A model generated the notes under the pieces. The model was not told the DNA's origin and did no database searches. It worked only from the letters and a program-made list of their open reading frames with translations. The translations under genes and the position numbers were made by a program. A DNA stretch of 64,000 bases, taken from Lichina pygmaea. Taxonomy: Eukaryota; Ascomycota; Lichinomycetes; Lichinales; Lichinaceae. Positions 3,226 through 38,216 of the stretch are shown here, piece by piece. Where the stretch lies: positions 1,674,001 through 1,738,000 of the forward strand of contig OY730171.1 in assembly GCA_963422465.1 (NCBI GenBank). Reading direction: 5' to 3'. Numbering within the stretch: the first letter of the stretch is position 1; each line of letters starts with the position of its first letter.

Positions 3226-6200
3226 TTAGGAGTACCCCTGGCTTTTTCCGTCTGAGACGACGGGAATCGTGATCGTCCGAGTGATGGCGCGCACTTGCAC
3301 AACTCGCACGCACACTTCAGGCTCGGTGGTGACGAAGATTGAGGTGCCGCTCGTCCGAGTCACGGTTATGTCAGTCGAGATTGTGCTGCGAGTGCTGCTG
3401 ACCACGCTTCCTTCGCCGCTGCAGCTAGCGGTATCACTGGAGCCGGTAAGAGTGCCAGAGCTGCCACTAGCAGTGGCGCCGGGGCCAGTAGAAGAGCTGC
3501 CGGTAGCAGTGTCACTGGAGCCGGTAAGAGTAGCAGAGCTGCCGCTAGCGGTGTCACTGGAGCCGGTGGGTGTGACAGAGCTGTCGCTAGCAGTTGCGCT
3601 GGAGCCAGTAGAAATGCCGGAGCTGCCGCTACCCGAGTCTGAGCTGGAAGAGGCAACGTTGCCGTCGCTAACAGAGCTCGACGAGGAGTCTCCGGTAAGT
3701 GCGGAGCTGCCGCTGGCAGTGGCGCTGGAGCCGGTAATAGTGTCAGAGCTGCCGCTAGCAGTAGTGTTGGGGCCAGTAGAAGTGCCGGAGCTGCCGCTAC
3801 CCGAGTCCGAGCTGGAAGAGGCAACATTGCCATCGCTAACAGAGCTTGACGAGGAGTCTCCGGTGACTGCGGAGCTGCTGGGCGTGGTGTCGCTGCCGCT
3901 AGTGGGAGCAGGGCTTGAGGTAGCTCCAGGGTTGGCCGAGCTTGGACTTTCTGATTCTGTGGTGGAAGCGGAGCCTGTGGTCATTGTGCTCGCCGTGGAG
4001 ACTGAGGAAGCAGCCGTCGATGAAGTGGTGCGAATGCCGTTTCTGCGTTCGAAGCACAAACAGGCGCTTGAGACGCCGATGGGCGAATAATGGGCGAGGA
4101 GAGTCGGCACCGGCGAACCAGCCGTCAAGAATGCCGAGCACAGCGGCGAGGCTTGTGATCTGATGCTCTCGAGCGTGAGTAGAAGGGCATCTTCGACACA
4201 GAACGAAGGATCCGTTGCGGTCGTGGAGGCTGTAGTCGCCGTGCCCGATACAGAAGACGAGCCGGAGCTGCCTGAGACTGTGGTGGAAATTGGCGTAATG
4301 TCACTGCTGCTTGAGGCGGTAGAACTCGACGCGTCGGAGCTTGACACTGTGGGGCTCGAGATAGTGGAGCTCGTGAAAGTCGAAGCTGTTGGATTCGACT
4401 CAGTGGAGCTTGGCGCGGTGGGGCTCGATTCTGACAAGCTTGGTTCGGAAGCCGACAGACTCGATTCCGACACACTGGATTCCGACATGCTAGACACCGA
4501 CACGCCGGATTCCGACATCGACGCTGACATGCTTGGCTCTGACGCCGATGGGCTTGATTCCGAGACACTGGATTCCGACATGGACGCTGACATGCTTGGC
4601 TCTGACGCCGATGAGCTCGTTGCCGACACACTGGAGTCTAACATGGTAGACGCCATTGTGCTTGGTTCTGACGCCGATGGGCTTGATTCCGAGACACTGG
4701 ATTCCGACATGGACGCTGACATGCTTGGCTCTGACGCCGATGAGCTCGATGCCGACACGCTGGATTCTAACATGGTAGACGCCATTGTGCTTGGTTCTGA
4801 CGCCGATGGGCTTGATTCCGAGACACTGGATTCCGACATGGACGCTGACATGCTCGGCTCTGACGCCGATGGGCTCGATGCCGACACGCTGGATTCTAAC
4901 ATGGTAGACGCCATTGCGCTTGGTTCTGACGCCGATGGGCTTGATTCCGAGACGCTGGATTCCGACATGGACACTGACATGCTCGGCTCTGACGCCGATG
5001 AGCTCGTTGTCGACATGCTTGGTTCTGACACCGATGGGCTTGATTCCGAGACGCTGGATTCCGACATGGACACTGACATGCTCGGCTCTGACGCCGATGA
5101 GCTCGATACCGGCACGCTGGACTCTGACATGCTAGACATAGATGATTCTGACGCCGGCACGCTCGATTCCCACACCGATGAGCTCGATGCCCACATGCTG
5201 GATTCTGACATGGTAGACGCCGACATGCTTGGTTCCGACATGGTAGACGGTGGCATGCTCGATTCCCAAACCGACGAGCTCGATGCCGATACGCTGGATG
5301 CCGATAAGCTCGATTCGAATGCCGAAGAGCTCGATGCCAATGAGCTCGACTCCGACGCGCTGGATGCTGACAAGCTTGACGCCAAAGAGCTTGAAGATGA
5401 CAGGCTAGATGCTGACAGGCTCGATCCAGTCTCACTCAACATAGAAGAGCTCAACAGCGTTGCTGAGCTCGACAACGTCGTATCACCTGGGATGTCGGAG
5501 GACTGCGTATTGCTGCTAGACAGAGTGCTCGACGTAGTGTCGCTAACCGATACCACGGAGCTCAAACCAGTGCTAGACAGCGCCGTCGTCCCATCACTCT
5601 CCGAAGCCGTGCTTGAAAGGATGCCGCCCGAGATGCTCATGGACGAGCTGGAGGTCGCGGCCGGAGTGAAAGTCGTCCGGATACCGTTTCTCCGTTCGAA
5701 GCAAGCACAAGCACTGTAGACGCGTTCAGGCGAGTACTGACTCAGGGACGTAGGGAGCGGCCCGCCAGACGATAAGAAAGTCGAGCAAACCGAAGACGCT
5801 TGTGGCTTGATGCTTTCCAGAGTGAGTAGCAGGGCATCCTCAATACAGAAGGCCGGGTCCGTTGGATTGAATGAGACCGTGCTCGAACTCATCAGGGTGC
5901 CTTCGGTACTGGTGATCGTCGTCATCGTCGCCGCGGTTGAACTGATAGCAACAAACGTGGAGGACGATGCCGTGCTTGCGCTCACTTCGGTACTAGCGGC
6001 ATCGCTCGAGCTCGGACCAGAAGTGGCTGTATCCGGGCTGCTCGATGAAGACAGTATCTCAGAGCTGCTTGAAGACGAGCTGACCGACGTTGTAGCCGAT
6101 TCCGTGCTACTGCTGCTGCTGGTAGTCGGCGATGCGATCGAAACATCCGACGATGAAGTAGCGGAAGGCGAAGATGTCTCTGCAATGCTGCTCAAGCTCG

Positions 6201-9200
6201 ATGCGGAAGTGGCCGATGAGGACTCGGAATTCGACGACAAGTCGCTGCTGCTCGGAGACGACGCGATAATAGTAGTTGAAGGCTCTGTGATGCTGCTGCT
6301 GCTGCTAGATCCAGACGTTATGGAGGATATCTCAGACACCGACGACGCACTGCTGCTGCTGTCAGTCGGCGCGACGATGACGCTGCTGGAAGATGAGCCG
6401 ACGGAAGACGAGGAAAAGTCAGTGCTAATGCTACTGTCCGAAATCGGAGGGTCCGCCGGCGAAGAAGAGTCAGTGCTGATGCTGCTGTCCAAGTCCGAAG
6501 GGCCCGACGCCGAGGAAGTTCCAGAGCTTGAAGAGCTACTGCTGTCTGCCACTATTGAGCTGGACGTCGAAGAGCCCGTCAAAGATGCAGTAACCGCGCT
6601 CGAGCTCGTGGACGACACGACAGCTGTGGCCGTCAAAGTGGCAGGAATCGTGGCCGTCCCTTGGAAGCAAGAGCAAGCGCTGCTAACGCTGATGGGGGCG
6701 AAGGTGCTGACGTAGCTTGGCAGTACCACGCCAACACCAGATCCTGCCAAGAAATCGGGGCAGAAGCTTATCGCTTGGGTGCTGAAGACCTCGAGAGCAC
6801 GCAGAACGTCGTCCTCGAAACATGTCGTCGGTAGAGCCGTGACAGGAGCTGTCACTGTCTTCGCGAAGCAGGAGCAAGCGCTGATAACGCTGGGCCTAGC
6901 GAACTGACTGATATAACTTGGAAGTGGCAGCGCTTCACCTTGGGGCCCCAACAACGAAGGACAGAAGAGCGATGCATCAATGGCGAATCGTTCAAGCGCT
7001 CTCAGCACGTCGTCTTCAAAGCAAATCGTCGGGAGACTTGTGGGGACGGTGGCTGTCGTGGCCGACGTGACAAGAGGAGTAACAGAGGTCGTGCTCACAA
7101 CACCAACTGTCTTCTGGAAGCACGAGCAGGCACTGCTAATGCTGGGTGTAGCAAATGAACTGACGAAGCTCGGTAGAATCGCCGATGTTCCCGCCGGCAG
7201 CGCCAAGAAGCTAGGGCAGAAGGAAATCGCTTCGCCTGTAAAGGCTTCCAGGGCCCTCAAGACGTCATCCTCAAAGCAGATGGTTGGGAGCGCCGTTGCG
7301 GTTGTTGAGACCGTGGAAGATTGCGTCGCTGAAGTGGTCGACGCCGCTGGAGTCCCAGAGGCAACAGTCTTCTGGAAACACGAGCAGGCGCTGCTGATGC
7401 TCGGAGAAGCGAACGCGCTGACATAGCTGGGCAGCACAGTAGAGACGCCAGGTGGGAGCGCAAGGAACTCTGGGCAGAAAGCCACAGCTTGTCCAGTGAA
7501 CACCTCAAGGGCCCTCAGAACATCATCTTCGAAGCAGATAGTGGGAAGCGGTGTCACTGTCGACATTGTCATCGTCATCGAAGACGCTGGCGTAGCCGAC
7601 GTGACTGGGGCTGTTGGGCTTGAAGAGCCGACAGTCTTCTGGAAGCAGGAGCAGGCGCTGCTGATGCTCGGAGAAGCAAATGCGCTGACGTAGCTGGGCA
7701 GCGCGGTAGAGACGCCGGGTGAAAGCGCCAAGAAGCCAGGGCAGAAAGTGACAGCCTGTCCAGTGAACACTTCAAGAGCCCTCAGGACATCATCTTCGAA
7801 GCAGATGGTTGGTAGTGTTGGTGCCGCTGTCGGAGTACCAGAGGCGACAGTCTTCTGGAAGCACGAACAAGCGCTGCTGATGCTCGGAGAGGCAAAAGCG
7901 CCGACATAGCTGGGCAGCACAGTGGACACGCCCGGTGGGAGGGCGAGGAATCCTGGGCAGAAATTAATAGCCTGTCCAGTAAACACCTCAAGGGCTCTCA
8001 GAACATCGTCTTCAAAGCAGATGGTGGGCAGCGGCGTTGCCGTCGCTGTCGGAGAACCAGAGGCGACAGTCTTCTGGAAGCACGAACAAGCGCTGCTGAT
8101 GCTCGGAGAAGCAAAAGCGCTGACGTAGCTGGGCAGCACAGTGGACGCGCCCGATGGGAGGGCGAGGAATCCTGGGCAGAAAGCCACAGCCTGTCCGGTG
8201 AACACCTCAAGAGCTCTAAGCACATCATCTTCAAAGCAGATAGTGGGCAGAGGTGTTGCTGTCGCTGTCGGAGTCCCAGACGTCGCTGTTTTCTGGAAGC
8301 AGGAGCAAGCGCTACTGATGCTTGCAGTGGCAAACGTGGTCAGATAGCTCGGAAGCGGTGTAGGGATGCCCGGAGCCAGAGCCAGGAAGCCAGGACAGAA
8401 GCTGATCGCCTCCGCCGAGAACGCCTCAAGTGCACGAAGCTCGTTGTCCTCGAAGCAGATGGTCGTGGTAGGTGTCGCCCCGGCCGTCTTCTGGAAGCAC
8501 GAGCAAGCGCTGCTGATGCTGGGCGTCGCGAAGGTACTGACGTAGCTGGGCAAATCTGTCGGGATGCCCGGCGGCAACGCGAGGAAGCCCGGACAGAAAG
8601 CAACCGCTTCAAGTGTGAAACGCTCGAGTGCTCTAAGAACATCGTCCTCGAAGCATTGTGTGGGCAGGGGTGTCGGAGAAACGGACGGGCCAACAGTCTT
8701 CTGGAAGCAGGAACATGCGCTGCTCACGCTAGAGCTTGCGAACGGAGTCAGGTAGCTGGGTAGCACAGCTGAATCTCCCGAAGGCAAGGCGAGGAAACCA
8801 GGGCAGAATCCGACGGCTTCTCCGCTGAAGACCTCTAGTGCCCTTAACACATCGTCTTCGTAACAAATCGTCGGAAGCGGTGAGGGCGCGCTTGTCGGTG
8901 TGGCAGTCACGACGGCAGTCTTCTGGAAGCACGAACAAGCGCTGCTGATACTCGGGGTGGAGAATCTGCTAACGAAGCTTGGTGCAACTGCCGGCGCACC
9001 TGCTAGCAACCCAGGGCAGAACGCAAGTGCTTCCACGGAGAATGCTTCCAGAGCTCGCAGGACATCATCTTCGAAGCAGATTGTCGGAAGAGGCGAAGGC
9101 GTGCCCGTCGAGGTGATCGTCGGGACGGCCGTCTTCTGGAAGCACGAACAAGCGCTGCTGATACTCGGGGTGGAGAATCTGCTGACGAAGCTTGGTGCAA

Positions 9201-12200
9201 CTGCCGGCGCACCTGCTAGCAACCCAGGGCAGAACGCACGTGCTTCCACAGAAAAAGCTTCGAGCGCTCGGAGGACGTCGTCTTCGAAGCAGATAGTTGG
9301 AAGAGGAGACGGTGTCGGTGTTGTACCCGCAGTCTTCTGGAAACAAGAACAGGCACTGCTAACGCTGGGTGTCGCGAAGTTGCTGACGAAGGTGGGAAAA
9401 ACGACTGGTATGCCTGCTAGCACACCCGGACACAACGCACTAGCTTCCACGGCGAATGCTTCGAGCGCTCGAAGGACATCATCTTCGAAGCAGATGGTGG
9501 AGAGAGGAGAAGGCGGGCTCGTCGGGTTGCTCGTCGGAACGGCTGTTTTTTGGAAGCAAGAGCAAGCGCTGCTAATCGTCGGTGTAGAGAAGCTGCTGAC
9601 GTAGCTTGGCAAGACAGTAGGAGCCCCAACAGGCAAAGCCAAGAATCCCGGGCAGAAAGTGAGTGCCTGTGGACTAAACGCCTCCAGTGCCCGCAAAGCG
9701 TCGTCTTCGAAGCAGATAGTAGGAAGTGGACTGGCAGTGCCGATAGAAGTAGGAACCACAGTCTTCTGGAAGCACGAGCAAGCGCTGGTGATGCTGGGCG
9801 TCGCGAAGCTGCTGACGTAGCTAGGCAAGACGGTTGATACACCAGCTGGTAGCGCCAAGAATCCCGGGCAGAAGAGGGCTGCCTGGTCGCTGAACACCTC
9901 CAAAGCCCGCAAAACGTCATCTTCGAAGCATTGCGTGGGAAGTGGACTTGGTGTAGCAACTCCAGTTGGCGTGACACCTCCAGTCGGCACAGCAGTCTTC
10001 TGGAAACACGAGCATGCACTGGTGATGCTGGGCGTCGCAAAGCTGCTGACGTAGCTAGGCAAGACGGTTGATACACCAGCTGGTAGCGCCAAGAAGCCCG
10101 GGCAGAAGAGGGCTGCCTGGTCGCTGAACACCTCCAAAGCCCGCAAAACGTCATCTTCGAAGCATTGCGTGGGAAGTGGACTTGGTGTAGCAACTCCAGT
10201 TGGCGTGACACCTCCAGTCGGCACAGCAGTCTTCTGGAAACACGAGCATGCACTGGTGATGCTGGGCGTCGCAAAGCTGCTGACGTAGCTAGGCAGCACT
10301 GTCGAAGCACCTGCAGGGAGTGCCAAGAAGCCTGGGCAGAAGAGAACCGCTTGGGCGCTGAACACCTCCAAAGCCCGCAGAACGTCGTCTTCGAAGCATT
10401 GTGTGGGAAGTGGACTCGGTGTAGCAACTCCAGTCGGGGTGACACCTCCAGTCGGCACAGCGGTCTTCTGGAAGCACGAGCATGCACTGGTGATGCTAGG
10501 AGTTGCAAAGCTGCTGACGTAGCTAGGCAACACCGTTGAAGCACCTGCAGGGAGTGCCAAGAAGCCCGGGCAGAACAGAACTGCCTGGGCGCTGAACACC
10601 TCCAAGGCCCGCAGAACGTCGTCTTCGAAGCATTGGGTCGGGAGCGGAGATGGAGCTGACGTGGCAACCCCGGTTGGCACAGCTGTCTTCTGGAAGCATG
10701 AGCAGGCGCTGGTGATGCTGGGCGTGGCGAAGCTGCTGACGTAGCTAGGCAACACCGTGGAACCACCAGCTGGCAACGCCAAGAAGCCCGGGCAGAACAG
10801 AACTGCCTGTGCGCTGAACACCTCCAAGGCTCGCAGAACGTCGTCTTCGAAGCATTGAGTCGGAAGCGGAGCTGGAGCTGACGTGGCAACCCCAGTTGGC
10901 ACAGCGGTCTTCTGGAAACAGGAGCAGGCACTGGTGATGCTGGGTGTAGCAAAGCTGCTGACGTAGGTAGGCAACACCGTTGAGGCACCTGCCGGCAGTG
11001 CTAAGAAGCCCGGACAGAACAGGACTGCCTCAGCGCTGAAGACTTCCAGGGCTCGCAGAACATCGTCCTCGAAGCACTGAGTTGGCAGAGAGGTTGGCGT
11101 AGCAACCCCAGTCGGCACGACAGTCTTCTGGAAGCAAGAGCAAGCGCTGGTGATGCTGGGCGAAGCAAAGCTGCTGACGTAGCTAGGTAACACCGTAGAA
11201 GCACCTGCAGGTAGTGCCAAGAAGCCTGGGCAGAACAGAACTGCTTGCCCGCTGAACACTTCCAGGGCTCGTAGAACATCATCCTCGAAGCACTGAGTTG
11301 GGAGCGGAGTCGGCGTCGCTACCGCAGTCGGCACAGCAGTCTTCTGAAAACAAGAACAGGCGCTAGTGATGCTGGGAGACGCGAAGCTGCTGACGTAGCT
11401 AGGCAACACTGTCGGTACACCAGCTGGCAGCGCCAGGAAGCCTGGGCAGAAGAGAACTGCTTGCCCGCTGAACACTTCAAGAGCTCGCAAGACATCATCT
11501 TCGAAGCACTGGGTCGGGAGTGGGGTTGGCGTGACAACTCCAGTCGGCACAGCTGTCTTCTGGAAGCATGAACAGGCGCTGGTGATGCTAGGAGTTGCAA
11601 AGCTGCTGACGTAACTAGGCAACACTGTCGGTACACCAGGAGGCAGCGCCAGAAATCCCGGGCAGAAGAGAACTGCTTGCGCGCTGAACACCTCCAGAGC
11701 TCGCAGAACATCATCCTCAAAGCATTGTGTGGGGAGTGGGGTCGGTGTAGCTACCCCAGTCGGCACGACAGTCTTCTGGAAGCACGAGCAGGCGCTGGTG
11801 ATACTAGGGGTTGCAAAGCTGCTGACGTAGCTAGGCAACACTGTCGGTACACCAGGAGGCAACGCCAGGAAGCCCGGGCAGAAGAGAACTGCTTGTGCGC
11901 TGAAGACCTCCAGAGCTCGCAGAACATCATCCTCAAAGCATTGAGTGGGGAGAGGGGTCGGCGTAGCTACCCCGGTCGGCACGACAGTCTTCTGGAAGCA
12001 TGAACAGGCGCTGGTGATGCTCGGTGTAGCAAAGCTACTGACGTAGCTAGGCAACACCGTTGGTACTCCAGGCGGCAGCGCCAGGAAGCTCGGACAGAAG
12101 AGAATTGCCTGTGCGCTGAACACCTCCAGAGCTCGCAGAACATCGTCCTCAAAGCATTGAGTGGGGAGAGGGGTTGGCGTAGCTACCCCAGTCGGCACAA

Positions 12201-15200
12201 CAGTCTTTTGGAAGCATGAGCAGGCACTGGTGATGCTAGGCGTAGCAAAGCTGCTAACGTAGCTCGGCAACTCCGTCGGCACACCAGGCGGTAGCGCCAG
12301 GAAGCCCGGGCAGAAGAGAACTGCTTGTGCGCTGAACACCTCCAGAGCTCGCAGAACATCGTCCTCAAAGCACTGAGTCGGGAGTGGGGTCGGCGTAGCT
12401 ACCCCGGTCGGCACAACCGTCTTCTGGAAGCACGAGCAGGCGCTGGTGATGCTAGGGGTGGCGAAGCTGCTGACGTAGCTAGGCAACACTGTTGGGACAC
12501 CGGGTGGCAGTGCTAGGAAGCCTGGGCAGAATAAAACCGCTTCTACACTGAATACCTCGAGGGCCCGCAGAACATCGTCCTCGAAGCATTGAGTCGGGAG
12601 TGGAGTCGGCGTAGCTACCCCAGTCGGCACAGCTGTCTTTTGAAAGCACGAGCAGGCGCTGGTGATGCTAGGAGTCGCAAAGCTACTGACATAGCTAGGA
12701 AGAACTGTCGGTACACCAGGTGGCAGCGCCAGAAAGCCCGGGCAGAAGAGAATTGCTTGCGCGCTGAACACCTCCAGGGCTCGTAGAACATCGTCTTCAA
12801 AGCATTGAGTCGGTAGCGGAGTCGGTGGGGCCGCAGTGGGCACCGCAGTCTTCTGGAAGCACGAGCAGGCGCTGGTGATGCTAGGGGTGGCGAAGCTGCT
12901 GACGTAGCTAGGCAACACCGTTGGTACACCAGGCGGTAGTGCCAGGAAGCCCGGACAGAAGAGAATTGCCTGTGCGCTGAATACCTCCAGAGCTCGCAGA
13001 ACATCATCCTCGAAGCATTGAGTCGGGAGCGGGGTCGGCGTAGCAGCTCCATTCGGCACAACCGTCTTTTGGAAGCACGAGCAGGCGCTGGTGATGCTAG
13101 GCGTAGCAAAGCTGCTAACGTAGCTAGGCAACTCCGTCGGCACACCAGGCGGCAGCGCCAGAAAGCCCGGGCAGAACAAAACCGCTTGCGCGCTGAAGAC
13201 TTCCAGGGCTCGCAGAACATCGTCCTCGAAGCATTGAGTCGGTAGTGGAGCCGGCGGGGCCGCAGTGGGTACCGCAGTCTTCTGGAAGCACGAGCAGGCG
13301 CTGGTGATGCTAGGTGTAGCAAAGCTACTGACATAGCTTGGCAGGACTGTCGGTATACCAGGTGGCAGTGCCAGGAAACCCGGGCAGAAGAGGATTGCTT
13401 GCGCGCTAAAAACTTCAAGGGCGCGCAGAACGTCGTCTTCAAAGCATTGAGTCGGCAGCGGAGCCGGTTGGACCGCCGTGGGCACCGCAGTCTTCTGGAA
13501 ACAGGAGCAAGCGCTGGTGATGCTTGGTGCGGCGAAGTTGCGGACGAAAGTGGGAACGGTAGCTGGGGCACCCGGAGGCAGCAGCAGATAGCCCGGGCAA
13601 AATGCAAGAGCCTCAACTGTGAATGCTTCCAAAGCTCGCAGAACGTCGTCCTCGAAACACTGAGTTGGGAGTGGGGTTGGTGTGACGACCCCAGTCGGCC
13701 CGGCAGTCTTCTGGAAGCACGAGCAAGCGCTGGTGATACTCGGTGCAGCGAAGTTGCTGACGAAAGTGGGTACGACTGCCGGGGCACCCGGAGGCAGCTG
13801 CAGATAGCCCGGGCAAAATGCAAGGGCCTCAACAGTGAACGCTTCCAAAGCTCGCAGAACGTCGTCTTCGAAGCATTGAGTCGGTAGCGGAGTTGGGTTG
13901 ACGACGCCAGTCGGCACCGCAGTCTTCTGGAAACAGGAGCAAGCGCTGGTGATGCTTGGGGCGGCGAAGTTGCTGACGAAAGTGGGCACGACTGCCGGGG
14001 CACCCGGAGGCAGCTGCAGATAGCCTGGGCAAAATGCAAGGGCCTCAACAGTGAACGCTTCCAAGGCTCGCAGAACGTCGTCCTCGAAACATTGTGTCGG
14101 GAGGGGCGCGGGAGGAGCTGTTGGCGCCGCTGTTGGCACCGCCGTCCTCTGGAAGCAAGAGCACGCGCTGCTGATGGTCGGAGAGTTGAATGCCGTAACG
14201 AAGCTTGGTAGCGGTACGAATCCTCCGACAGGCAGTGCCAGGTAGCTCGGGCAGAAGAGCAGGGCCTCGCCAGAGAAGGCCTCCAATGCTCGCAAGGCGT
14301 CGTCTTCGAAGCACTGGGTCGGGAGAGGCGCGGGAGGAGCCGTTTGCGCCGCTGTTGGCACCGCCGTCTTCTGGAAGCAAGAGCACGCGCTGCTGATTGT
14401 CGGAGAGCTGAATCCCGTCACAAAGCTTGGTAGCGGTATGGATCCTCCGACGGGTAATGCCAGGTAGCTCGGGCAGAAGAGCAGGGCCTCGCCAGAAAAA
14501 GCCTCCAAGGCTCGCAAGGCGTCATCCTCGAAGCATTGAGTCGGGAGAGGCTGGGGAGCTCCTGTTGGCACCGCCGTCTTTTGGAAGCAGGAGCAAGCAC
14601 TGCTCACGCTCGGCCTTTCGAACCTGCTGACGTAGGAGGGCAAATCTACTCCGATGTCGAGGGGCAGTGCGAGAAGCAAGGGGCAGAATGCGATCGCCTC
14701 GGTGGCAAAGGCTTCCAACGATCGGAGCACATCATCCTCGAAGCAGACGAGGGTTGCGGTCGGGGCAGGCGGAAGAATCGGTGGAATGGCCACGTCCGAA
14801 AGACTGACGGGGAGAGGGGGAAGGAATTGGCGCTTTTCAAGCTTGGCATCTCCAAACTCGGGCGGTGGCGTGATAATCGGGTCGGTCGGCCCTTCAGTTA
14901 CCGGAGGAGGACCTGACCCTGGCGTCCTGGGACGCAGGAGACCCAAGCGCTTCAATGCGCATCTCAGGAAGCTGTTCAAGTCGTCTGGTGCACCGCCGAG
15001 GCATTCGGAGAAGGCGGTTATCCTAGGACACCGAGACGTCAGACATCAAGCGCTCCATCGAAGCTCGGACGAACAGGAAGTGTCGTGGAATCAAGCTACT
15101 CACGTAGACTGAGTGCACCCGCGGTACGCCACTTGCTCGTCCTGGCAGGCATCGGCGTCAGACTCGCGCGCTGCGAGGCAGTCGACATGCTCAGAGTTCT

Positions 15201-15606
15201 TCTCTGCGCAGTAGCCGGATACGGATCCGAAGATTGGATCCTCCCTGTTGATGATATCAACCGCCAACGTCCTGCTTCGCGACGTGGCCCACTTACAGGA
15301 ACGACAAGCATTGGTCGTAGTCCACTCCTTTTACCTTCTCGCAGAAGGACGAAATGATCTGGAGCGATTCGCGTCAGCAGCCAGGGATGCCGTAGGAAGG
15401 CAGGGTCAGGGAAAGCCAACCTCGGTGACAGCCTCGAATTGGGCAGTAGTCAGTTGACCAGCCTGCAACACATTTTCGGTGCCTGAGCGATCGGAAAACC
15501 CTCCGCCATACTGTCTTCCACGCCGGATGGCCTTCGCGTCGCACACGATGCTGACGAGGCCAAGGATAGTGAGCAGATGCACGGTAGAGAACGTCTTGAG
15601 AAACAT
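3226..15606 (-). CDS. Giant secreted modular protein, ~4,061 aa, 39 four-Cys modules
   Basis: The exons are 15606-15421, 15358-15297, 15244-15104 and 15022-3226. Introns 2 and 3 have GTAAGT and GTGAGT donors; intron 1 uses a weaker GTTGGC donor. All phases agree and the total is 4,062 codons including the stop. Residues 1-26 are a signal peptide (hydrophobic HLLTILGLVSIV). Residues ~60-155 form a domain with eight cysteines. A KLEKRQF Kex2-like site follows. Then come 37 tandem modules of about 65-90 residues with the pattern C-x19-C-x29-C-x-C. Each module starts CFEDD.LRALE and ends SACSCFQKT, and Pro/Thr-rich linkers ending PLPT join them. Two diverged modules (near 5,674-5,860 and 4,030-4,210; FCxEDALLLTLES to ERRNGIRTT) are separated by Ser-rich stretches. 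The C-terminus shows no obvious GPI or membrane segment. I infer a secreted, mucin- or adhesin-like wall or extracellular protein with heavily O-glycosylated spacers. The SSACSC ending is a motif I know from fungal secreted proteins of unknown function. Enzymatic activity is not suggested. Confidence 0.85.
6650..14745 (-). repeat. Coding tandem array of 37 four-cysteine modules
   Basis: I counted 37 consecutive modules in the translated sequence, spaced by roughly 200-270 bp. Modules 1-6 (the 5' end of the gene, near 14,745-13,450) and 24-37 (9,720-6,650) are divergent from one another. Modules 7-23 (about 13,450-9,720) are much more alike, many differing at a handful of residues. Modules 20-22 share a longer linker with a second PTG unit. 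This pattern indicates that the array grew most recently in its middle. C-x19-C-x29-C-x-C holds in the central modules. The middle spacing shortens in modules such as 25-27, where the LALPPG loop is reduced to LLAG. Confidence 0.9.
9827..10294 (-). repeat. Near-perfect 234-bp tandem duplication inside the array
   Basis: Positions 9,827-10,060 and 10,061-10,294 are two adjacent 234-bp copies (78 codons, exactly one module plus linker). I can see a single base difference in the first part of the unit (aatcccg versus aagcccg), and possibly a few more at the edges. This is the clearest evidence of very recent unit duplication or gene conversion in the giant gene. It also marks a place where short-read assembly could miscount units. 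Confidence 0.8.
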
Positions 15607-25020: not shown

Positions 25021-28000
25021 TCAAAAAGAACTTCGACTGATCGACCGGCTGTCAAGGGTCAAGCTCTGACGAACCCCCGTCGCATTCTTCTGCGAGACAA
25101 TCTTGATCTTCCGCCCGCTCATTCCAGGCCTCGCGAAGAGAGAACCCGACGGAGTCGCCGCTGCTGACTTTCTCGTCTTCGTCGCCGCTCCAGCTTTCGT
25201 GCCTCTGCTATCCTCCTTCTTCGAGGGGAGAGACGGCCTCTGCTTGATCTTCGCTCTCCTAGCTGGACGAAAGGATGGCCGTTGTGGGTCTGGCTCAGAC
25301 TCTGTAGATGGTCCATCGTCGTCAACCTGATTGGAATCGGAAGAAACGTCAGTGCTGAGAGATTGCCCCTCCGCTACCCGAAGAGCATGTCGCTTCGCCG
25401 CTTCGTAGGGGTCCTCTTTCTCTCTGGGCTTATGCTGAAGGCGTAGTCTTTTGCTCGGAGGCGCCTCCGACCAAGTGGCTGACCTGCGGCGCTTGTTCAC
25501 TTCGATACCTGGATCCGATTCGTCCAAGTCGTGATTGAAGCTACTTGAGGAGTAGTCATCGGCAAACAGTACCGCCTTCTTCCGCGGTGTCTTGGTGGGA
25601 TGGTTGGCTGGAATAGCAACCTTGTCGACAATGGAGGACTTTGAAGGGTGCGGGCTTCTACGCGGGTGCGTGTCGCTTCCGCTTGGGCTCCCGATGTGAT
25701 GTCCGCGACGAGACGCAACTGAGATAACGTCCCACTCGGACTCTGACTCTGACTCGGAGCGATCCTCGTTCACATGGTCTTTACTTGAAGCAGACCGTGG
25801 TGGATAGCGACTCCCGCTTGGTCTGAGCGCCGCGGTGGGCTTTGAGGATGGGGTAGAGTTCGTTCTCCCAGCCGGACGGATCTGGACGGCCGACTTTGCC
25901 TTGGCCGGACTCTTGGTTCGCGAGAGACTCGATGCGGCGAGCTGTTCCAGCCCCATAGAGTCCGACGTCGTGCTGTGCCCAGACACGACCGAAGGGCTTG
26001 ATTGCGGGCCGTCGGTCTGCTGCGCGGTCCGCGCCGTTCGCTGCTTGCCTTGGTCCGGATGTACCGGCGACGAGACGATCTTCTCAAGGCCCAGTAGGCG
26101 TGCACGGGCGATGTTGTATCGATCATTTTCTTCGGTTTCTGCGTAAGTTTGCTGTATGTTGGCGAGGGTTCGCTCGAAGCTCGCTTCAAGGGCGCTCTGG
26201 GACAGATCTCTGAGCTCCGGCTCCTCGGCCGACTTCTCGTTGCCCAGAGACGACCTCGCGGGGCGTCGGGAAACGCGGTCGTGAGTGCTTGATCCGGGGC
26301 TAGGAACCATCCTGGCGATCGGGGCGACGTCCCTCTTAGGAGAGGCAGGCGCCTTGGGCTGAAAAGCAGAACCCAGCCCAGTAGTCGCAGTAGTCGCTCG
26401 ATGGTCACCCCTAGGAGCACAGGGCCCGCTGCCGCGGAGCGCGGGCTGATGGGAGTTACCGTGGTCTCGATAGCGACATTCCGCCTCTTCCATGACAGCG
26501 TCCACCAGTGGTGTGAGGTTGGGATCGACCGCCAATTCCCCAGAGCCCCCAGTCTCGAAAGACGGGATGGTGTCTTGGGTTGATCCACCGCCTAGCTGCG
26601 TCCGAGCTTCGTTCTGATCGGCGAGGGTGCTATCCAAAGTCACCTCCTTCGCCTTCTCGCGTTCCGCCGCTTCCTTCAATCTTCGTAGGCGCACCGTCTC
26701 GTAAGGATGCCCAACGTCGTTATCTGGCCCTTGATTGATCCAGTTGAGATTCGAGCGACTGAAGTCGACCAAGCTTTCGAAACTGCGCGGATCGGCTACC
26801 TTTTTCGTATCGTGACCGACCAAAGTTCCCATGGGCACGTACGGGCGGGTCCCTGGCGCCTTTCGGCATTGCGCGCAGGAACAGATCTTCAGACACTTGG
26901 GACATTTCCAATCTGGCTTTTCCATCACCTCGAGTGGCATCAAGTCAAAGGCGCGGAACAAGACTCCGTAGCAGTAGGCCGTTCCGCATTTGCAATGAAC
27001 GAGTTTCCCGTCAAGCTCTCGGTGTTTGCAGATGTGGCAGTTGATGATGTTCTTGCTGGCCGCCTGCGAGCGACGCTTTCGTTTGCGTGACCTCTTCCGC
27101 CTCGCGCTGTCTTCGTCGTCTCCCGAGTCCTCCGCCTCATCGGCATCGCGTCGGTGCTCTCCCATCCGGCCTTTCTGAGGCGCCTTGATGCCCTTCCAAG
27201 ACCGAATCTTCAGCTGTTCCTGGCAAACGTGGGCAAGTGTCTTCTTGCCCAGTCGTTGCCTTGCGATGTCTAGAGGCATCGGGGAGGCCTGGTCAATCTC
27301 TCCGTCCATGTCGATGATCATCCTCCTCCAGGTGTCGTGTTCGATCGCGAGCTTCTTCCACTCCCACTGCTCGACCCACTTGAATTTGGAAACGCACGCA
27401 CAGCTGCGGCCCATGGCGAAACACTCCATGCAGATGTCGTATGCATCCTCTGGTCCTAGCTCGTAGACGCAGGTCGGACACGTCAGGAATCGGTTGAAGA
27501 TGTTGCATCGGCAGTAGGCGCAGGTTACGTTGCTGTCGAAGCGCAGAAACTGCACATGCTTCTCCTTTGGGAGGCCTGGAGAGAACATCTCGGATAGCAA
27601 GATGTCGGTGAAGAGCTTGAACAGCGAACGGAAGTCCTTCTGCAATTGGAGCACTTTGCGGTCTGTCTGAGCGGCTGCCGTTGCAGCGTCGCTCCATTCT
27701 GGCTTGCGTGATCCGCTCACCTGAGTGAGAAGGTTGGCATATTTTTGCATGGTATGATAGACGATTGCCTTGTTTTTGTACTGCTCGTCGCGGCAGACCA
27801 TTCGGGCCCTCGGCAGTGCCTCGTCTAGGGCCATCTCAAGAGTCTCGATGGTTGTCCTGTTCCAGGCAACCTTCATCGTCCTGGATCCCCGATTCCAGAC
27901 TTGATGCGGTGCCAGCGGAGGAATCAGGATAAAATCTCCGGCCCTCTGATCCACCACGTACGTCGTGAAAGGGGCATGTTTCCACGCGTTGATCTGGGCA

Positions 28001-28880
28001 AAGTGAGACTCCACCTCTATGTCGTGACCCAGGATGGACATCCAGTACTCCGACACCAGGTAGCGATCTTTCGTTTCCGTCATGAACCACACAGAAGAGC
28101 CGGGCTTCTCTTGCTTGCCCCACAGATCTTGGCCATCTCCAGAAGTCTCAACCATGATGTTCTGGCCCAGGCTTGCACACATTTCCCGATGTGCAGGTGT
28201 GTAAGTCCCCTCGTGACCAATGTAGCACATCAGATTCTCTGCTCTCATAGGCGCCGGCAAAGAGCTCATAAGATCGCCTGCAGGACCAACACCCGCCCCC
28301 GATCCTCGTCGACCTGGGTCTGGTCCGTCGGCAGTGGACTCATTCAAGTAAAACACGTTCGGAGGAAGGAGGTCCCTGAGAAGCTTATGCCACTCGTCTG
28401 GACAATCGATATCTTTCAAGTACAGCCGTTGACGGGTCGTCTCTTGATAAGTGTGCGGATTGAACTGATCCGCGAGCTTCGACATGTGCTTCAGGTAATG
28501 TTGGATCGAGATGTCCATGTTTGTCTGATTCGTGAGATTGCGTGCCGTTTCGACTACGAAAACCACTGGTCAGTTCCGAGTGGAGCGAAGATCTGACCTG
28601 GACAGCGCATACATTTGGAGCCGACATTCTTCCTCAACCATGAAACCGAGAAGAGATCCGGGGGAAAGCGATTTTGAAGCCCTTCAATGACCAACGGCTT
28701 ACCGCCGAGGATGACATGAAGCAGGACTAGCTTCTCAAAGAGTTCGGGGCCTTGCACCTCGATCATGTCGTATGGAATCCGCACGGCATATTCGAAGTTG
28801 GGCGTCTCCTGAACAAGCTGGTTGAGGTCGAGATCAGGAGGAAGAGGTAAAAATGACGCTTGCGGCACTTGTGCAGGCAT
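25021..28880 (-). CDS. JmjC-domain histone demethylase-like protein with R1 zinc finger (1,271 aa)
   Basis: Exon 1 (28880-28598) and exon 2 (28553-25021) are separated by a 44-nt intron (GTCAGA, CTGACC branch, TCGTAG) with matching phase. The JmjC domain lies at about 190-330 and carries the Fe(II) motif H216-x-E218 and a distal His at 311 (PPLAPHQVWN), so catalysis by the 2-oxoglutarate oxygenase fold is plausible. A first cysteine cluster follows at ~439-481 (CAYCRCN, CPTC, CMEC). Next comes a basic NLS-like run (KRSRKRKRRS, ~581-590), then a 4CXXC-R1 zinc finger at ~600-657 (CHICKH, KCPKC, CSCAQC). The last 550 residues are disordered, Ser/Arg-rich and acidic. The JmjC plus R1 architecture is known from nuclear lysine demethylases of the KDM3-like group. 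The likely role is chromatin regulation in the nucleus; the target lysine cannot be deduced. The gene is divergently placed from COQ2. Confidence 0.87.
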
Positions 28881-29758
28881 CGTGAAGAGCCGGTACGGTC
28901 TATAACGCGTGTGTGTAAGCAGATGAAGCGTCTAAGACCCAGGATATAGCTGTCGAAACCAGGATAGCTTAGTTCGCGACCTGGTATACTACTCACGGTG
29001 TGTTGACTTTGGCACGACAAGTGAGGTGCGAATACGGTAAATTGTCAAGCTGTTGAAAGAGACTACAGCTCTATCGGTGAAGACTTTATATAGAATGGTA
29101 TTGAAGGATACCTGATGTAAAGGAGGCGGTCTTCATCATATTGGATGAATTAGAACATGCTCTGAGATGAATATCACTGGAAGACAAGTCGAGTCCTGTG
29201 CTCTTGACTTCTAGGTTTACGGAATAGCCTTTCTCCGGGAAGCAAAGCATAGCTCTACGGTACGGTATTGTATAGTCCCGCAGATACATAGTTACGTCGT
29301 ACTGGCACGTAGCGTAGGAGGTACGAAGGTACTTACTCACCGTAGGGTAGCTCTACAACGGTCAAGCTGCTTCATCCGACACAAGCGCGATGACCGCGTC
29401 GCGCTTATTTTCAAGTCATCCAAGGTCGACCTTTGGTGCGCTCTCATTGAAGTGCATTGGCTCCAATTTGGATCTGATCGACTGCCTTCGCGAGTACCGC
29501 TCGCTTGTCTGATCGAGACGTTCTCTACCGGTAGTCAGCTCATGCAGCCCAAATCTTCACTCGTCAACTGCAAGCAAATGGCCCAGAGACGCGGCATCTA
29601 CAAGGGATTTGCCTACATATATGACGTCCGCTGATTCCAGTCAATCAAGGTACCGGAGCTTCATTTCGCCTGAGCAATCACGATAGGAGCTTATCTCGTC
29701 ATTGGAGCAAGATTGGAAGTTCATTGCAGTTATCATCCGCTCGTTCCAATCACCAAAG
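28881..29758. promoter_or_regulatory. Divergent promoter region between the JmjC gene and COQ2
   Basis: This 878-bp non-coding interval separates two oppositely transcribed genes and must hold both promoters and 5' leaders. GTAC-containing palindromes occur near 29,257-29,266 and 29,320-29,335. I can assign no specific factor sites. Confidence 0.45.
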
Positions 29759-31150
29759 ATGGTTCCCTCACTTTTGAGGAGTATGGATAGGCTCACTCCA
29801 GGACCAGCGTCTCGAGCGACTTTGCAGCCGCTCTGCAGACTATCTTTGAGACCAGCTGTCATTCGATGCTCGCATCTGCGATGGCCTGTATGCAGCCGAG
29901 TGCTACCAGATACCGGACACCTGGGCTCAAGGGATCGGGATGTGTATACCCGAAGATGGAGTCGAAAAGCCGAGTCTACTCGCAGCTTCAGCTTGAGCCA
30001 CAAGGCTGAGAAGCGGACAAGGTCTACAAAAGGCGCTGGTCCGGGTCGGCCTTTTCCAAGGACAGCACCGGCCACGGTCGAAGTTTACCAGCCGCCTACA
30101 GCTGGCATTCTGTCCTACCTACCGCCGTCATGGGTTCCTTACGCGGAACTAATTCGACTTGACAAAGCCATCGGGACATACTATCTCTTCCTCCCATGCG
30201 CCTTCTCGACCCTCGTGGCGGCAACGATGGCCACGCCCATGGCTCACCCGCTCCACGTGCTAACGACATGTCTATGGTTCTTTGCCGGTGCCTTCATCAT
30301 GCGCGGGGCTGGATGCACCTTCAACGACCTTCTCGACCGAGACTTTGACAAGCACGTCGAGCGGACACGCTTCCGACCGATTGCGCGAGGAGCCATCACG
30401 CGGAAGCAGGCTCTAGTATTTGTTGGCGTACAGTGTCTTGGTGGACTGGTAGTGCTGCTTCAGTTCCCTCTCGCGTGTCTCGCCTGGGGCATTCCTTCGC
30501 TGGTCCTGGTCGGTCTCTATCCGCTGGCCAAGCGGGTGACCTTCTTTCCGCAATTCGCACTGGGTCTCACGTTCTCGTGGGGCACGATAATGGGCTTTCC
30601 GGCCATGGGCATCGATCTGCTGTCGGACAAGATGGCCGCCAGCGCAGCCATCATGCTGTACTCGAGCAACTTCTGCTGGACGGTCTTGTACGACCTGATC
30701 TACGCACACATGGACGTACTCGACGACGCGGCGGCGGGGGTCAAGAGCATGGCGGTACGGTATTCCGAGCAAACGAAAATGTTCCTCGTCGCCATGGCGC
30801 TGCCACAGGTCTCCTTTCTCGGCGCGGCAGGAATGTTCGCCGGCTCGGGACTGAGCTATCTCGTCATCGGCTGCGGGTCCGCCATCACCTCCCTCGCCGC
30901 CATGATCTGGCGCGTGAACCTCTCGAGTGTCAGCAGTTGCTGGTGGTGGTTCCGCTACGGATGCCTCTTCACCGGAGGTGGCATCACTATTGGCCTGTCA
31001 GGGGACTACCTCGCGAGATACACAGGCCTCTATCCCTCCTCGGTCAACCCGTTTGCCAAACTCGGGCAAGACTCGAGCCCTTCGACCCAAATCTCATCTC
31101 AGTCCACGTCAGACCCAGAGTCTGAACCAAAGTCCGAGGTTTCCAAGTGA
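29759..31150 (+). CDS. COQ2: COQ2-type 4-hydroxybenzoate polyprenyltransferase (463 aa)
   Basis: This intronless gene belongs to the UbiA family. The N-terminal ~95 residues are basic and rich in Ser/Arg, as expected for a mitochondrial presequence. The membrane core starts LPPSWVPYAELIRLDKAIGT. It carries the first Asp-rich motif NDLLDRDFD, preceded by MRGAGCTF and followed by RTRFRPIARGAI, and the second motif YDLIYAHMDVLDD. Together these bind the Mg-prenyl diphosphate. Several long hydrophobic helices follow, including the FFPQFALGLTFSWGTIMGFP segment. In ubiquinone biosynthesis the enzyme joins the polyprenyl tail to 4-hydroxybenzoate in the inner mitochondrial membrane. I chose the ATG at 29,759; an in-frame ATG at 29,702 adds 19 residues. 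The strict match to the COQ2 motif set argues against a meroterpenoid-type relative, and there are no biosynthetic neighbours. Confidence 0.9.
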   Translation: MVPSLLRSMDRLTPGPASRATLQPLCRLSLRPAVIRCSHLRWPVCSRVLPDTGHLGSRDRDVYTRRWSRKAESTRSFSLSHKAEKRTRSTKGAGPGRPFPRTAPATVEVYQPPTAGILSYLPPSWVPYAELIRLDKAIGTYYLFLPCAFSTLVAATMATPMAHPLHVLTTCLWFFAGAFIMRGAGCTFNDLLDRDFDKHVERTRFRPIARGAITRKQALVFVGVQCLGGLVVLLQFPLACLAWGIPSLVLVGLYPLAKRVTFFPQFALGLTFSWGTIMGFPAMGIDLLSDKMAASAAIMLYSSNFCWTVLYDLIYAHMDVLDDAAAGVKSMAVRYSEQTKMFLVAMALPQVSFLGAAGMFAGSGLSYLVIGCGSAITSLAAMIWRVNLSSVSSCWWWFRYGCLFTGGGITIGLSGDYLARYTGLYPSSVNPFAKLGQDSSPSTQISSQSTSDPESEPKSEVSK

Positions 31151-34232: not shown

Positions 34233-36652
34233 TCATAGAAATTCGAATCGGTCACCATTGCCTTCTCTAAGCAGCGGTGCCATGCGTTCCGTGCCGACGA
34301 TCCTCTCGAGCTTCAGCGCATCCCACTTCGAGTAAATCGTCCTGACGGCCGCTTCCCCAACGTCCACCTTCCCATCCTGAACCGACGCGCCCAAGCATTC
34401 CTCCACAAGCTCGCGGTAGAAGGCAGGGTTGTCCGGCAGACCGTACATCATCACGTTCGTGGCTCCTTTGATCCGGTACCGTCGAAAATGATGGGCGCGT
34501 TCCGTGTACAGTAGAACGGAATAACGTCCGCTCAGAAAATGGCTGCGCGCCCGGGCAACGTCCCTGACGGACGTGTACTCCGATATTGCACCAAATGAGA
34601 CATTCTGTGTCGTGCTCGAGGATGAGAAGAAGTTTCGCAGCCGCACAAAATCAAAGTACAAGGGGATGAACACCAGAGTACCCTTCGAACTGAGCTTTGG
34701 CGCCACGGCCGTCGAGAAGTATTGGAACCGGACGTCAGGGTCGGCGGCGGGCGATGACGAGCCAAATCGTGTGAACACGTGCTTTATTCGTAGACCCAGG
34801 TTGAGTAGGGCGCCGTCGTACTTTTGCGTGAACCTGACTTTTCCGGCGATGTTCTTCATGCGATTGACGAAGATGCTGTTCAGGTCTGGGGTGTTGAAGG
34901 ACGAAAACACCAGGGTCTGACGAAGATGTTGTGCATGCCCATCAAGGCTCCAGCTCCTCACACGGCTGAAATCACAGCCGTGAGCTTCTTTCGGCTGCAG
35001 ATTGAGGTGGTCCAAAATGTATTCGACGTTGTCCCAGTTTTGCATGAGGAGCGCATCCGCATGATCGACGACGACAATCTCGATGGAGCTTAGATAATCG
35101 TGGTCGCGTTTTCTGGCACTGATACTCATATTATTCTCTGCTTCATTCCTGGAGGAGACTTTGATTCATGTCTGAGGCGAGGGGGTCTGATGGGTTCAAA
35201 GTAAACAGAAGTGGACTTACTCTTCCGGAGCCAAAGCAGTATACAGTCCCAAAGGACTGGCTAGAATGATATCAGAGCCGTAGAATGGCGAGAAGAACTT
35301 GATGGTTTTCCGGGTGAACTTCAAGCCGATTCTGAACATATCATCATCGTTCCCCTCGAAGAGGTCTCGAAAGTCGTCTGGTTTATTGGACAGCACGGCA
35401 TCGTGGGGTTGCTGCGAGAAGGAGTCTTGAAATCTCTTCCTGTTGTCTTGCTGTTCTGGCTGACATAACCTGACCACGGCGTCGACCACTCTGACACACG
35501 CTTGTCTTGTTGGAAGGAGGAAGAGGATTTTTGGTCTCGTGAACCCTTGATCTCGAAGGTCAATCTCTTCAGAGTCCGAATGGCGCAGCTTGCGTCCGTT
35601 GTTCTTAATCACTCGATCCCGGGTTCTGGAGCACAGTAAGCGATGGCTTCGTAGACATTGAGCGGAGACACACTTGAAAACATGATTCAGCACATGCAGA
35701 CAGGTCATTGTACGAAGGCGCTCGGCATTGGCCAGGGTACGATTGCAGAGCAAGACGTCGCGGTAGTTGAAGATATATGGGGTGAGAATGCCTTCGAGGA
35801 TATCGAATGATTGGTAGGTGACAGATGCGCTTGCAACAAGCCTGCGTTTGAGCTGAGAACACTTAGTGAATAGAATCATGATATCATTGCACGGTTTCAA
35901 ACCTTCAACGATTCCGGGCTTTCGTACTGCAGGGCTGCAATGTCCTCGATCCCAGCCAGAGGCTCGGGAGCCATAATAGTTGCTTTGTCTGCTTCCCCGC
36001 ACTTCTTGACGAGTGTACGCCATTTCTTCTGGCGCACAGCAGCCAGACGGCGGGAAAGTTGGTCGTCGTTTGGTTGCTCGAAGTGCGTTCGAAAAGGATC
36101 CACCACTGACTGAATCAGCGCATCTTCACTAATTGCACTTTTCTAGACTGACTGGAGACATCTTGTCCGTCATTGCTGGCTTCATCCCCGGAGACATCAT
36201 CGTCGTTGTTATTTTCTGGGGTGTCTGGGTCTCTTTCCTCGTCGAAGAATGTAACATCTTCGGCTTCAACTACTTCTGGTCTCTCCGGTTCAGCGACATC
36301 GGCTTTATTCCTTGCCCGATTGGAGCCATCTTCCCGTTCCCAGTGACCTATCCGTGCTGAATGGGCTTTGGGCCGCAGCGATTTCAGAAGCAGATCATAG
36401 GCTGCCACTTTCGACCCAGTGTTTTCCGCCTCTGGCCCAACTACTTTCCGGAAATGTGCCGGCTCCAAGTTGTCTGTGCTGCGCTAGATCAGTGAAAGTG
36501 ACATCTTAGTGCCAACGGAAACCAGAGGTTTACTTTGATATTGGAGCTTGAACTTTCGCTCTTCCCGAGTCGAGTTTCCGCTTTTTGTGCTGACCAACTT
36601 GACTTGCCCAACGACGTGCTTTTGAGTCTGTTCTGCTAGCTACGTGTGTCAT
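34233..36652 (-). CDS. UTP25: UTP25, U3 snoRNA-associated ribosome biogenesis factor (715 aa)
   Basis: Six exons: 36652-36534, 36478-36153, 36105-35903, 35852-35674, 35625-35221 and 35148-34233. The five introns are 55, 47, 50, 48 and 72 nt, all GT-AG with agreeing phase. The N-terminus is basic ([10 protein letters not shown]), followed by an acidic Asp/Glu stretch. The family core begins [13 protein letters not shown] and continues through [32 protein letters not shown] forms across intron 4. [19 protein letters not shown] and [16 protein letters not shown] follow. The C-terminus, with [17 protein letters not shown], is typical. UTP25 resembles a degenerate DEAD-box protein and acts in the nucleolar small-subunit processome in 18S rRNA maturation. 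Intron 4 (48 nt) is a multiple of three without a stop, so retention would insert 16 residues. The gene is head-to-head with eIF3f. Confidence 0.92.
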
Positions 36653-36923: not shown

Positions 36924-37797
36924 ATGACCGACGCCGACTCCTTTCTGCATCTGGCAAGGCCTCTGGGTCCCGTCGTAGTTGGCAATCAGCCGGTAACGGG
37001 CCCATTAAACGTTGTTGTTCAACCCCAGGTTAGCCCTGCTGCCATTCTCATTGTCGTCAATCTCTGTTGACACAACGCCCACAGGCGCTGTTTTCCATTC
37101 TGGACCACTCGCTTCGCCGAAACGCCGACCAAGATCGAGTCATCGGCACCCTGCTTGGTGTTCGCTCCGAGGATGGCAGCGAGGTCGAGATCAGAAATTC
37201 CTTTGCGGTGCCGCACACGGAAATCCTCAATGAGCAGGTCGAGGTGGAGATGGAATATCAAAAGACCATGCTGTCGTTACACCTGAAGGCCAACCCTCGA
37301 GAAATTCTGGTCGGGTGGTACGCCACGTCGTCGGAGCTCAACCAGTTCTCGGCCCTCATCCAGAATTTTTACAGCAGCCAAGGCGACGGCACTTACCCAC
37401 ATCCCGCCGTCCACCTGACCGTCTCGACCGTGCCAGGCCAAGATATCGAGATAAGAGCCTACGTGTCGGCGCCAGTGGGTGTTACAACGGAGCGGATACA
37501 GGATAGTGCATCGTTCATTCCCATTCCGCATGAGATTCGGTACGGCGATGCAGAAAAGAGTGGCCTGGAGCTGATCTCGGCCGCCAAAGATCGAGATGAT
37601 CGAACAGTCGGCACGATGACGGACATCGAGTCGCTCGAGCGGGCCATTCAAGAGATCCTGGGGCTGATCGGACGGGTTGGGGAATACGTGAACTCGGTGC
37701 TCGACGAGGAGAGGCCGCCATCTACAGCGCTTGGCCAGTTCCTCCTTGACGCTCTCGCGTTGGCTCCTAAAGTCGAACCGGCAGACATCGAACGGGA
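36924..37797 (+). CDS. eIF3 subunit F (MPN domain), 3' part lost in the assembly gap
   Basis: Exon 1 is 36924-37028. Exon 2 starts at 37085 after a 56-nt intron (GTTAGC, CCACAG, phase 0) and runs into the N-run. The N-terminus has [19 protein letters not shown], and [20 protein letters not shown] opens the MPN domain. [16 protein letters not shown] and HPAVHLTV complete it. The catalytic JAMM histidine set of active MPN+ proteases is not present, as expected for eIF3f. The second half starts with [19 protein letters not shown], the linker seen in eIF3f and eIF3h. It is a cytosolic subunit of the translation-initiation complex. The C-terminal part, which normally ends with a helix and a charged tail, is missing. 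The few codons after the gap (37,998 on) cannot be assigned to it with confidence. Confidence 0.9.
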
Positions 37798-37997
37798 NNN
37801 NNNNNNNNNNNNNNNNNNNNNNNNNNNNNNNNNNNNNNNNNNNNNNNNNNNNNNNNNNNNNNNNNNNNNNNNNNNNNNNNNNNNNNNNNNNNNNNNNNNN
37901 NNNNNNNNNNNNNNNNNNNNNNNNNNNNNNNNNNNNNNNNNNNNNNNNNNNNNNNNNNNNNNNNNNNNNNNNNNNNNNNNNNNNNNNNNNNNNNNNN
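37798..37997. other. Assembly gap, 200 N
   Basis: Exactly 200 undetermined bases, probably a fixed-length placeholder, so the real distance is unknown. The gap removes the end of eIF3f. The decayed methyltransferase gene begins about 220 bp after it. Confidence 0.99.
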
Positions 37998-38216
37998 CGC
38001 GTGGCTTACGGCCCGAGGATGGCTTCTCCGTTCATACGCAGGCAATCCGAATGATGTAGAGGCAATCGAATAAACTGAGAAGAAAAGAAAGACGACGCCG
38101 TTCCCCAGCGCGATACATTCAACACACCAGCGGCAGGATCTTTCTACTGCTTCGTGGTCATCTTGTACCTTGGTCATGTAAGCGGCGAATACGACTCGGA
38201 AGCGCCTTGCCTGGAG

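Follow-up and report, generated by a model that had tools for sequence, protein, structure and literature searches.

A predicted secreted protein of Lichina pygmaea with 39 four-cysteine modules, a candidate multivalent component of the cell wall or matrix

Pir wall proteins carry internal repeats, with the repeat motif Q[IVL]xDG[QN]xQ, and a Kex2 site, and CFEM repeats bind heme. Longer repeat regions lead to better adhesion by yeast adhesins, according to PMC8654403, and PMC9252488 describes WSC proteins as binding beta-glucan and as being enriched in the Serendipita indica soluble matrix. Here we describe a gene on the minus strand of a 64,000-nucleotide stretch of Lichina pygmaea DNA (assembly GCA_963422465.1, contig OY730171.1, positions 1,674,001 to 1,738,000; here, the window) that encodes many copies of a four-cysteine module. 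Coordinates are positions in the window, and residue numbers refer to a 4,061-residue, four-exon gene model. Our recount of 39 modules, 37 in tandem and two among Ser-rich tracts, agrees with an earlier sequence-only reading of this DNA, which proved correct in almost all details. Although we stop short of calling it probable, the reading that we favor is that the gene product is secreted and serves as a multivalent part of the cell wall or extracellular matrix, its modules binding wall polysaccharide.

The modules follow the pattern C-x19-C-xN-C-x-C, with N = 29 in 32 of the 39, 26 in three, 28 in two, and 25 in two. The form C-x19-C-x29-C-x-C that had been proposed for all modules therefore holds for most but not for the seven that differ in the second gap, and the proposed SACSCFQKT ending does not extend to the two lone modules, which end otherwise. 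Mean column identity is 77% (31 of 37 distinct module sequences), and Phe, Leu, Ala, and Val are abundant in the module. In an alignment of 22 modules, hand-chosen from the window protein and 10 other proteins and omitting long-loop forms, columns C6, D9, L12, C26, S54, C56, and C58 are invariant, and there is no invariant His, Met, or Tyr. The modules share Cys1-x19-Cys (through an optional second Cys), an S-A-C-x-C end, and Asp and Leu after Cys1; the deviants from x19 are protein P0019 and one Watsoniomyces obsoletus module with a four-residue insert. Structure prediction for one module, which the earlier reading had suggested as a check, gave three helices from two different alignments, with a predicted local distance difference test score (pLDDT) of 76 and 77. 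Thus, the module is predicted to be a small three-helix unit, which would be held by two disulfides.

Searches of Pfam, NCBIfam, and PDB gave no credible match for the module, and no paper found in the open-access literature names such a module. Two Pfam families passed their cut-offs, Ribosomal_S10 in the array (29.9 bits; cut-off, 21.2) and FlhF_N in protein P0002 (32.1 bits; cut-off, 27), and bpX0 was listed for the window protein under its cut-off; all three were taken as repeat artifacts because no single stretch passes alone. NCBIfam models for an antiporter (P0002) and a ketoacyl synthase (P0006) were far under cut-off. Three PDB sequence matches, the best of which (3ult_A; expect value [E], 0.0032) lies inside a Ser-rich tract, and two further matches to TRIP12 (E of ~1) were taken as chance. 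Membership in the WSC family was rejected, as PF01822 is unlisted for the window protein and WSC merely adjoins the module in protein P0007. A small helical four-cysteine unit in many copies could also serve as a binder or scavenger of a small ligand (metal, heme, or lipid) with one site per module. This alternative is very unlikely. Pfam CFEM is unlisted at E up to 10, a CFEM-like pattern matched nowhere, the cysteine spacing differs, and the alignment offers none of the invariant residues looked for.

Divergence among the modules is concentrated at silent sites. For 496 equal-length module pairs, synonymous divergence (dS) was finite in 259, and nonsynonymous divergence (dN) was lower than dS in every one of these (mean dN, 0.102; mean dS, 1.509; median ratio, 0.05); in the other 237 pairs the silent sites were beyond the range of correction. 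Neighboring equal-length tandem modules had dN of 0 to 0.42 and dS from 0.15 to saturation, and the adjacent pairs 22-23, 4-5, 14-15, and 20-21 encode the same protein with silent differences (dS, 0.15 to 0.40). Third codon positions held 62% of the differences among the 32 equal-length modules. Because silent divergence far exceeds replacement divergence, the array is protein-constrained rather than a fold-over of the assembly, and the substitutions indicate strong protein constraint on the modules and exclude a chance origin. Modules 7 to 23 average 93% identity in protein versus 84% in DNA, which shows that the copies are under selection, so that copy number may be functional. Repeat-induced point mutation (RIP) may be adding to silent change in the array, where the CpA/TpG index is 1.33 versus 1.09 in the window from 16001 on, and the TpA/ApT index is 0.98 versus 0.71. 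However, the silent divergence was not ascribed to RIP, because the GC content of the array stays at 0.588 despite this mild RIP-like shift.

A long relative was found in another member of the Lichinomycetes. Residues 1 to 3000 of the open frame were used as the query against proteins of ~2,170 to 6,900 residues, and the 1,786 candidates with the most shared words were scored. The sole match among them was hypothetical protein M1823_001308 of W. obsoletus (P0001; 2,852 amino acids; E, 5e-254). Like the window protein, P0001 has a signal peptide, tandem modules, low-complexity tracts, two lone modules in a Ser-rich C-terminal part, and a tail. Its signal peptide aligns with that of the window protein with a score of 48, reached in 0 of 1,000 shuffles, and none of 1,000 shuffles was as good as the similarity of the tails. 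Unlike the window protein, it has 23 modules by pattern rather than 39, the first one divergent; its modules are of two alternating types, five with x23 in the first gap; and it has no recognizable counterpart of the eight-cysteine N-terminal domain (56 of 1,000 shuffles were as good). A long tract of LPTSILPS-type repeats lies between module blocks of P0001 at residues ~1400 to 2070, a tract that the window protein does not have. The earlier statement that no described protein has such a long array thus needs revision; the window array is the longest of its kind in this analysis, with a clear relative. The length ranges of our protein searches excluded proteins of ~800 to 2,170 residues, so arrays of middle length lie outside their scope.

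The profile search suggested with the earlier reading showed that the module is more widespread. The profile had seven rows, of which three came from the window, two from P0001, one from P0002, and one from Morchella protein P0004. Scoring the 7,999 candidates with the most shared words gave 19 proteins at E up to 10, and 17 of these had E values below 1e-4; the module in the 19 is without a family name. Besides P0002 and two near-identical Morchella proteins, the best match was from Tuber magnatum (E, 1.1e-14), and relatives not in the profile had E values of 1e-14 to 3e-5. A single-sequence search reached Morchella at E of 0.25 and 0.29 only. The kinship of the modules does not depend on the profile alone, because the Gallowayella module and the P0018 module, each used by itself as a query against the L. 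pygmaea genome, match window modules directly (E down to 9.9e-15 and 1.6e-6, respectively). The remark that secreted proteins of fungi are known to carry SSACSC-type endings was borne out by relatives with one to three modules in Morchella, Tuber, Choiromyces, Bisporella, Gallowayella, and Calogaya; P0016 has only part of one. These matches identify the module as an unnamed domain of filamentous ascomycetes that mostly occurs in one to three copies.

The relatives differ in how closely they resemble the window modules and in what accompanies them. Those of Morchella (P0003 and P0004), Tuber (P0005, P0008, and P0014), Choiromyces (P0009), and Bisporella (P0006) have the C-x19-C start, the SACSC end, and the fixed Asp and Leu, as in the window. 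Unlike the window modules, some have five or six cysteines, the extra-cysteine forms having x4-C-x14 in place of x19, or a dibasic site within a long loop. A weak Apple/PAN-like region lies behind the module in the Morchella and Tuber relatives. Gallowayella and Calogaya are lichen fungi. Gallowayella P0010, Calogaya P0012, and P0017 have a similar four-cysteine module, about half identical and ending SAC-x-CFQKTA or CFEKTA, but, unlike the window protein, each has a single module followed by an enzyme domain. This domain is a PF11790 glycosyl hydrolase core, found behind the module in these 3 of the 19 profile-search proteins, and in one other (P0007) the module lies behind WSC domains. Pfam searches of ten relatives gave PF11790 in three, WSC in one, a sub-threshold PAN match in one, and nothing in five. 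Morchella P0004, scanned separately, likewise has a PAN match under threshold.

Of 18 modules inspected, 8 have the long loop, which carries a dibasic KR or RR (KREAE in P0008) and lies between Cys3 and the SACSC end. These forms occur in P0003, P0005, P0008, P0009, P0011, P0014, P0015, and P0020 and look as if they were cut by Kex2 to two disulfide-held chains.

A tree of 80 modules over 59 columns gives some indication of how the array arose. Because 34 of its 74 inner branches are open, the bootstrap is unsettled, and P0001 module 23 is on a long branch, only starred groups were relied on. One supported group (100/98) unites the two lone modules of the window with the last two of P0001, one of which is a long branch. 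Tandem modules often cluster by their own protein, with P0001 groups at 100/99 and 100/98 and a group (99/94) of window modules 7 to 23, 28, and 31 to 35 with one P0002 module. A further group, at 92/85 and without a star, brings window modules 2, 3, and 24 together with P0002 modules, and the tree leaves several modules of both the window and P0001 without a place. P0002, with 614 residues and eight modules, appears to be a fragment, its source contig being 3,753 bases long. These groupings make the C-terminal arrangement with lone modules seem ancestral and show separate expansion of much of the tandem block in each line.

The gene model accounts for the array as part of one secreted protein. 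The minus-strand frame is open from 15045 to a stop at 3226 (3,939 codons), and joining the four exons in Table 1 yields a 4,061-residue product free of inner stops; the three introns, of 62, 52, and 81 bases, are each GT-AG. The model thus reproduces the 11.8-kb exon and three in-phase 5' exons of the sequence-only reading, and we infer that exons 1 to 4 are spliced to one transcript. The join is supported because the start Met is followed by no other Met before residue 2612, which leaves the array without an ATG of its own; because a direct splice from exon 1 to exon 4 would, from the exon lengths, break the frame; and because of the signal peptide alignment with P0001. Skipping of exon 3 alone would keep the frame, making it the least secure exon, and the intron 1 donor, GTTGGC, is weak, which counts against the join. 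The same two features could be taken to favor an annotation or assembly artifact, in which two genes are read as one or a repeat is collapsed or inflated. However, the lack of an inner Met before residue 2612, the many silent differences between adjacent modules, and the independent W. obsoletus genome, which shows most of the same part order, already disfavor an artifact, and we regard it as barely credible.

Hydropathy, the P0001 signal match, and a cysteine count bear out the proposal that the 5' exons add a signal peptide and an eight-cysteine domain, with cysteines at residues 68, 79, 95, 105, 116, 126, 137, and 151. In Pfam searches, the first 222 residues gave no match that exceeded a family cut-off. 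A CHCH, or twin CX9C, assignment for this domain was rejected (16.3 bits versus a cut-off of 27.2; E, 0.011), and the protein carries a signal peptide. The linkers between tandem modules are Pro/Thr-rich and span 13 to 36 residues (mean, 20.6). A crude hydropathy test found no GPI (glycosylphosphatidylinositol)-like hydrophobic end (15-residue values of at most 1.06 over residues 4021 to 4060), and the tail ends SDGKSQGYS. The whole protein has one N-glycosylation sequon and an isoelectric point (pI) of 4.1.

These features suggest how the protein might work as a multivalent tether of the wall or matrix. The linkers and Ser tracts would be O-mannosylated and stretched, and the array would be freed by a Kex2-type cut after LEKR. 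The modules would then bind or dock onto fungal wall polysaccharide, with beta-glucan as the first candidate, and many weak contacts in series would provide avidity, cross-linking or lining the wall or outer matrix, with reach set by module copy number. A rough estimate of the stretched chain is half a micrometer (743 linker and 977 Ser-tract residues at ~0.3 nm; modules, ~2 nm). Half a micrometer is enough to span a typical hyphal wall. Fusion of the module to glycosyl hydrolase cores and WSC domains places it in the context of the fungus's own wall or matrix. Some observations call for caution about the proposed sugar binding by the modules: Trp is scarce, and the module model has no clear fold match.

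Of the description as a secreted, extended extracellular protein and adhesin, the first part fits the signal peptide, the Pro/Thr linkers, the ~980 Ser-tract residues, and the absence of a GPI-like tail in the hydropathy test. An adhesin-like surface fiber, in which the array and Ser tracts would mainly extend a binding portion, either the modules themselves or the N-terminal domain, toward partners such as algae, bacteria, surfaces, or other hyphae, with copy number setting reach, is the main rival of the tether but rather unlikely. The length, the Ser-rich stalk, and the lineage-separate copy expansion may be likened to the repeat regions of yeast adhesins. However, Pfam revealed no known adhesin domain, the window protein has no GPI-like tail by hydropathy, P0001 ends in basic residues, the Kex2-like site parts the N-terminal domain from the array, and no counterpart of that domain was found in P0001. 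The fusions, too, favor a place in the wall or matrix of the fungus itself.

The modules might instead associate mutually, rather than with sugar, in a structural or hydrophobic coat protein of the sheath, spore, or thallus surface. The uniformity of the module and its richness in Phe, Leu, Ala, and Val are consistent with such a coat. However, single modules on an enzyme core or WSC domains need no self-assembly, and the protein is acidic, with linkers that seem flexible, so we consider a coat protein unlikely, more so than an adhesin.

If the modules of the tether do bind polysaccharide, this would suggest how modules place enzymes on the wall, and the array would be a ready-made multivalent probe. 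A wider proposal, which we regard as doubtful, is that the module represents a new family of small ascomycete domains that bind wall polysaccharide and, normally used one at a time, place enzymes, WSC proteins, or PAN proteins on the wall, and that it was amplified in a Lichinomycetes-type lineage to half-micrometer matrix-building tethers, possibly for partner contact. The module now defines a testable family of proteins named only "hypothetical" or "uncharacterized" in several fungal genomes.

In the L. pygmaea genome (32.5 Mb, eight contigs), window, Morchella, Gallowayella, and P0018 module queries matched this gene only, and no second module locus was found in a search whose first look passed 37 to 39 candidates per query, so that distant or intron-split genes can escape it. 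One PF11790 gene was found (C1 near 2796513), in which inspection by eye of stop-to-stop frames (40 residues or longer, within 5 kb) showed no module, although one in a shorter exon could escape such a view. Three places in the genome match WSC. Neighboring genes are included in Table 1.

Table 1. Parts of the module-array gene and neighboring genes, by position in the window
Feature	Position	Strand	Description
Exon 1	15421..15606	-	Start codon, signal peptide (residues ~1-24); hydropathy, homologous signal peptide in P0001
Exon 2	15297..15358	-	Phase, GT-AG borders
Exon 3	15104..15244	-	141 bases; GT-AG borders; holds four of eight N-terminal cysteines
Exon 4	3226..15022	-	End of N-terminal domain, module array, Ser-rich tracts, tail, stop
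Eight-cysteine N-terminal domain	14959..15343	-	Residues 68-151, across exons 2-4; two CX9C pairs
Kex2-like dibasic site, LEKR before Q (K193, R194)	14830..14835	-	Residues 191-195; between N-terminal domain and array; putative cleavage
37 tandem four-cysteine modules	6667..14745	-	Residues 223-2915
Ser-rich tract 1	5848..6666	-	Residues 2916-3188, 43% Ser
Lone module 38	5701..5847	-	Residues 3189-3237
Ser-rich tract 2	4201..5700	-	Residues 3238-3737, 46% Ser
Lone module 39	4054..4200	-	Residues 3738-3786
Ser-rich tract 3	3442..4053	-	Residues 3787-3990, 37% Ser
C-terminal tail	3226..3441	-	Residues 3991-4061, stop included; resembles P0001 tail
Open reading frame (ORF) with JmjC and zf-4CXXC_R1 domains	25021-28566	-	
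UbiA prenyltransferase	29702-31150		
UTP25	34233-36023	-	Split over two ORFs, probably by an intron
JAB/MPN protein	37067-38059		
ORF, 1,065 amino acids	40129-43326	+	Three putative Ig domain stretches (He_PIG); cadherin-like as in Axl2

Among known systems, Pir wall proteins resemble the window protein in having a signal peptide, a Kex2-like site (LEKR, residues 191 to 194, before the repeats), and internal repeats. Pir membership was rejected, as the Pir repeat motif has 0 matches in the window protein and P0001. The yeast GPI adhesins Als, Flo, and Epa have, according to PMC8654403, Ser/Thr-rich repeats whose number sets length. Unlike these adhesins, the window protein has no GPI-like tail, and its repeats are four-cysteine modules.

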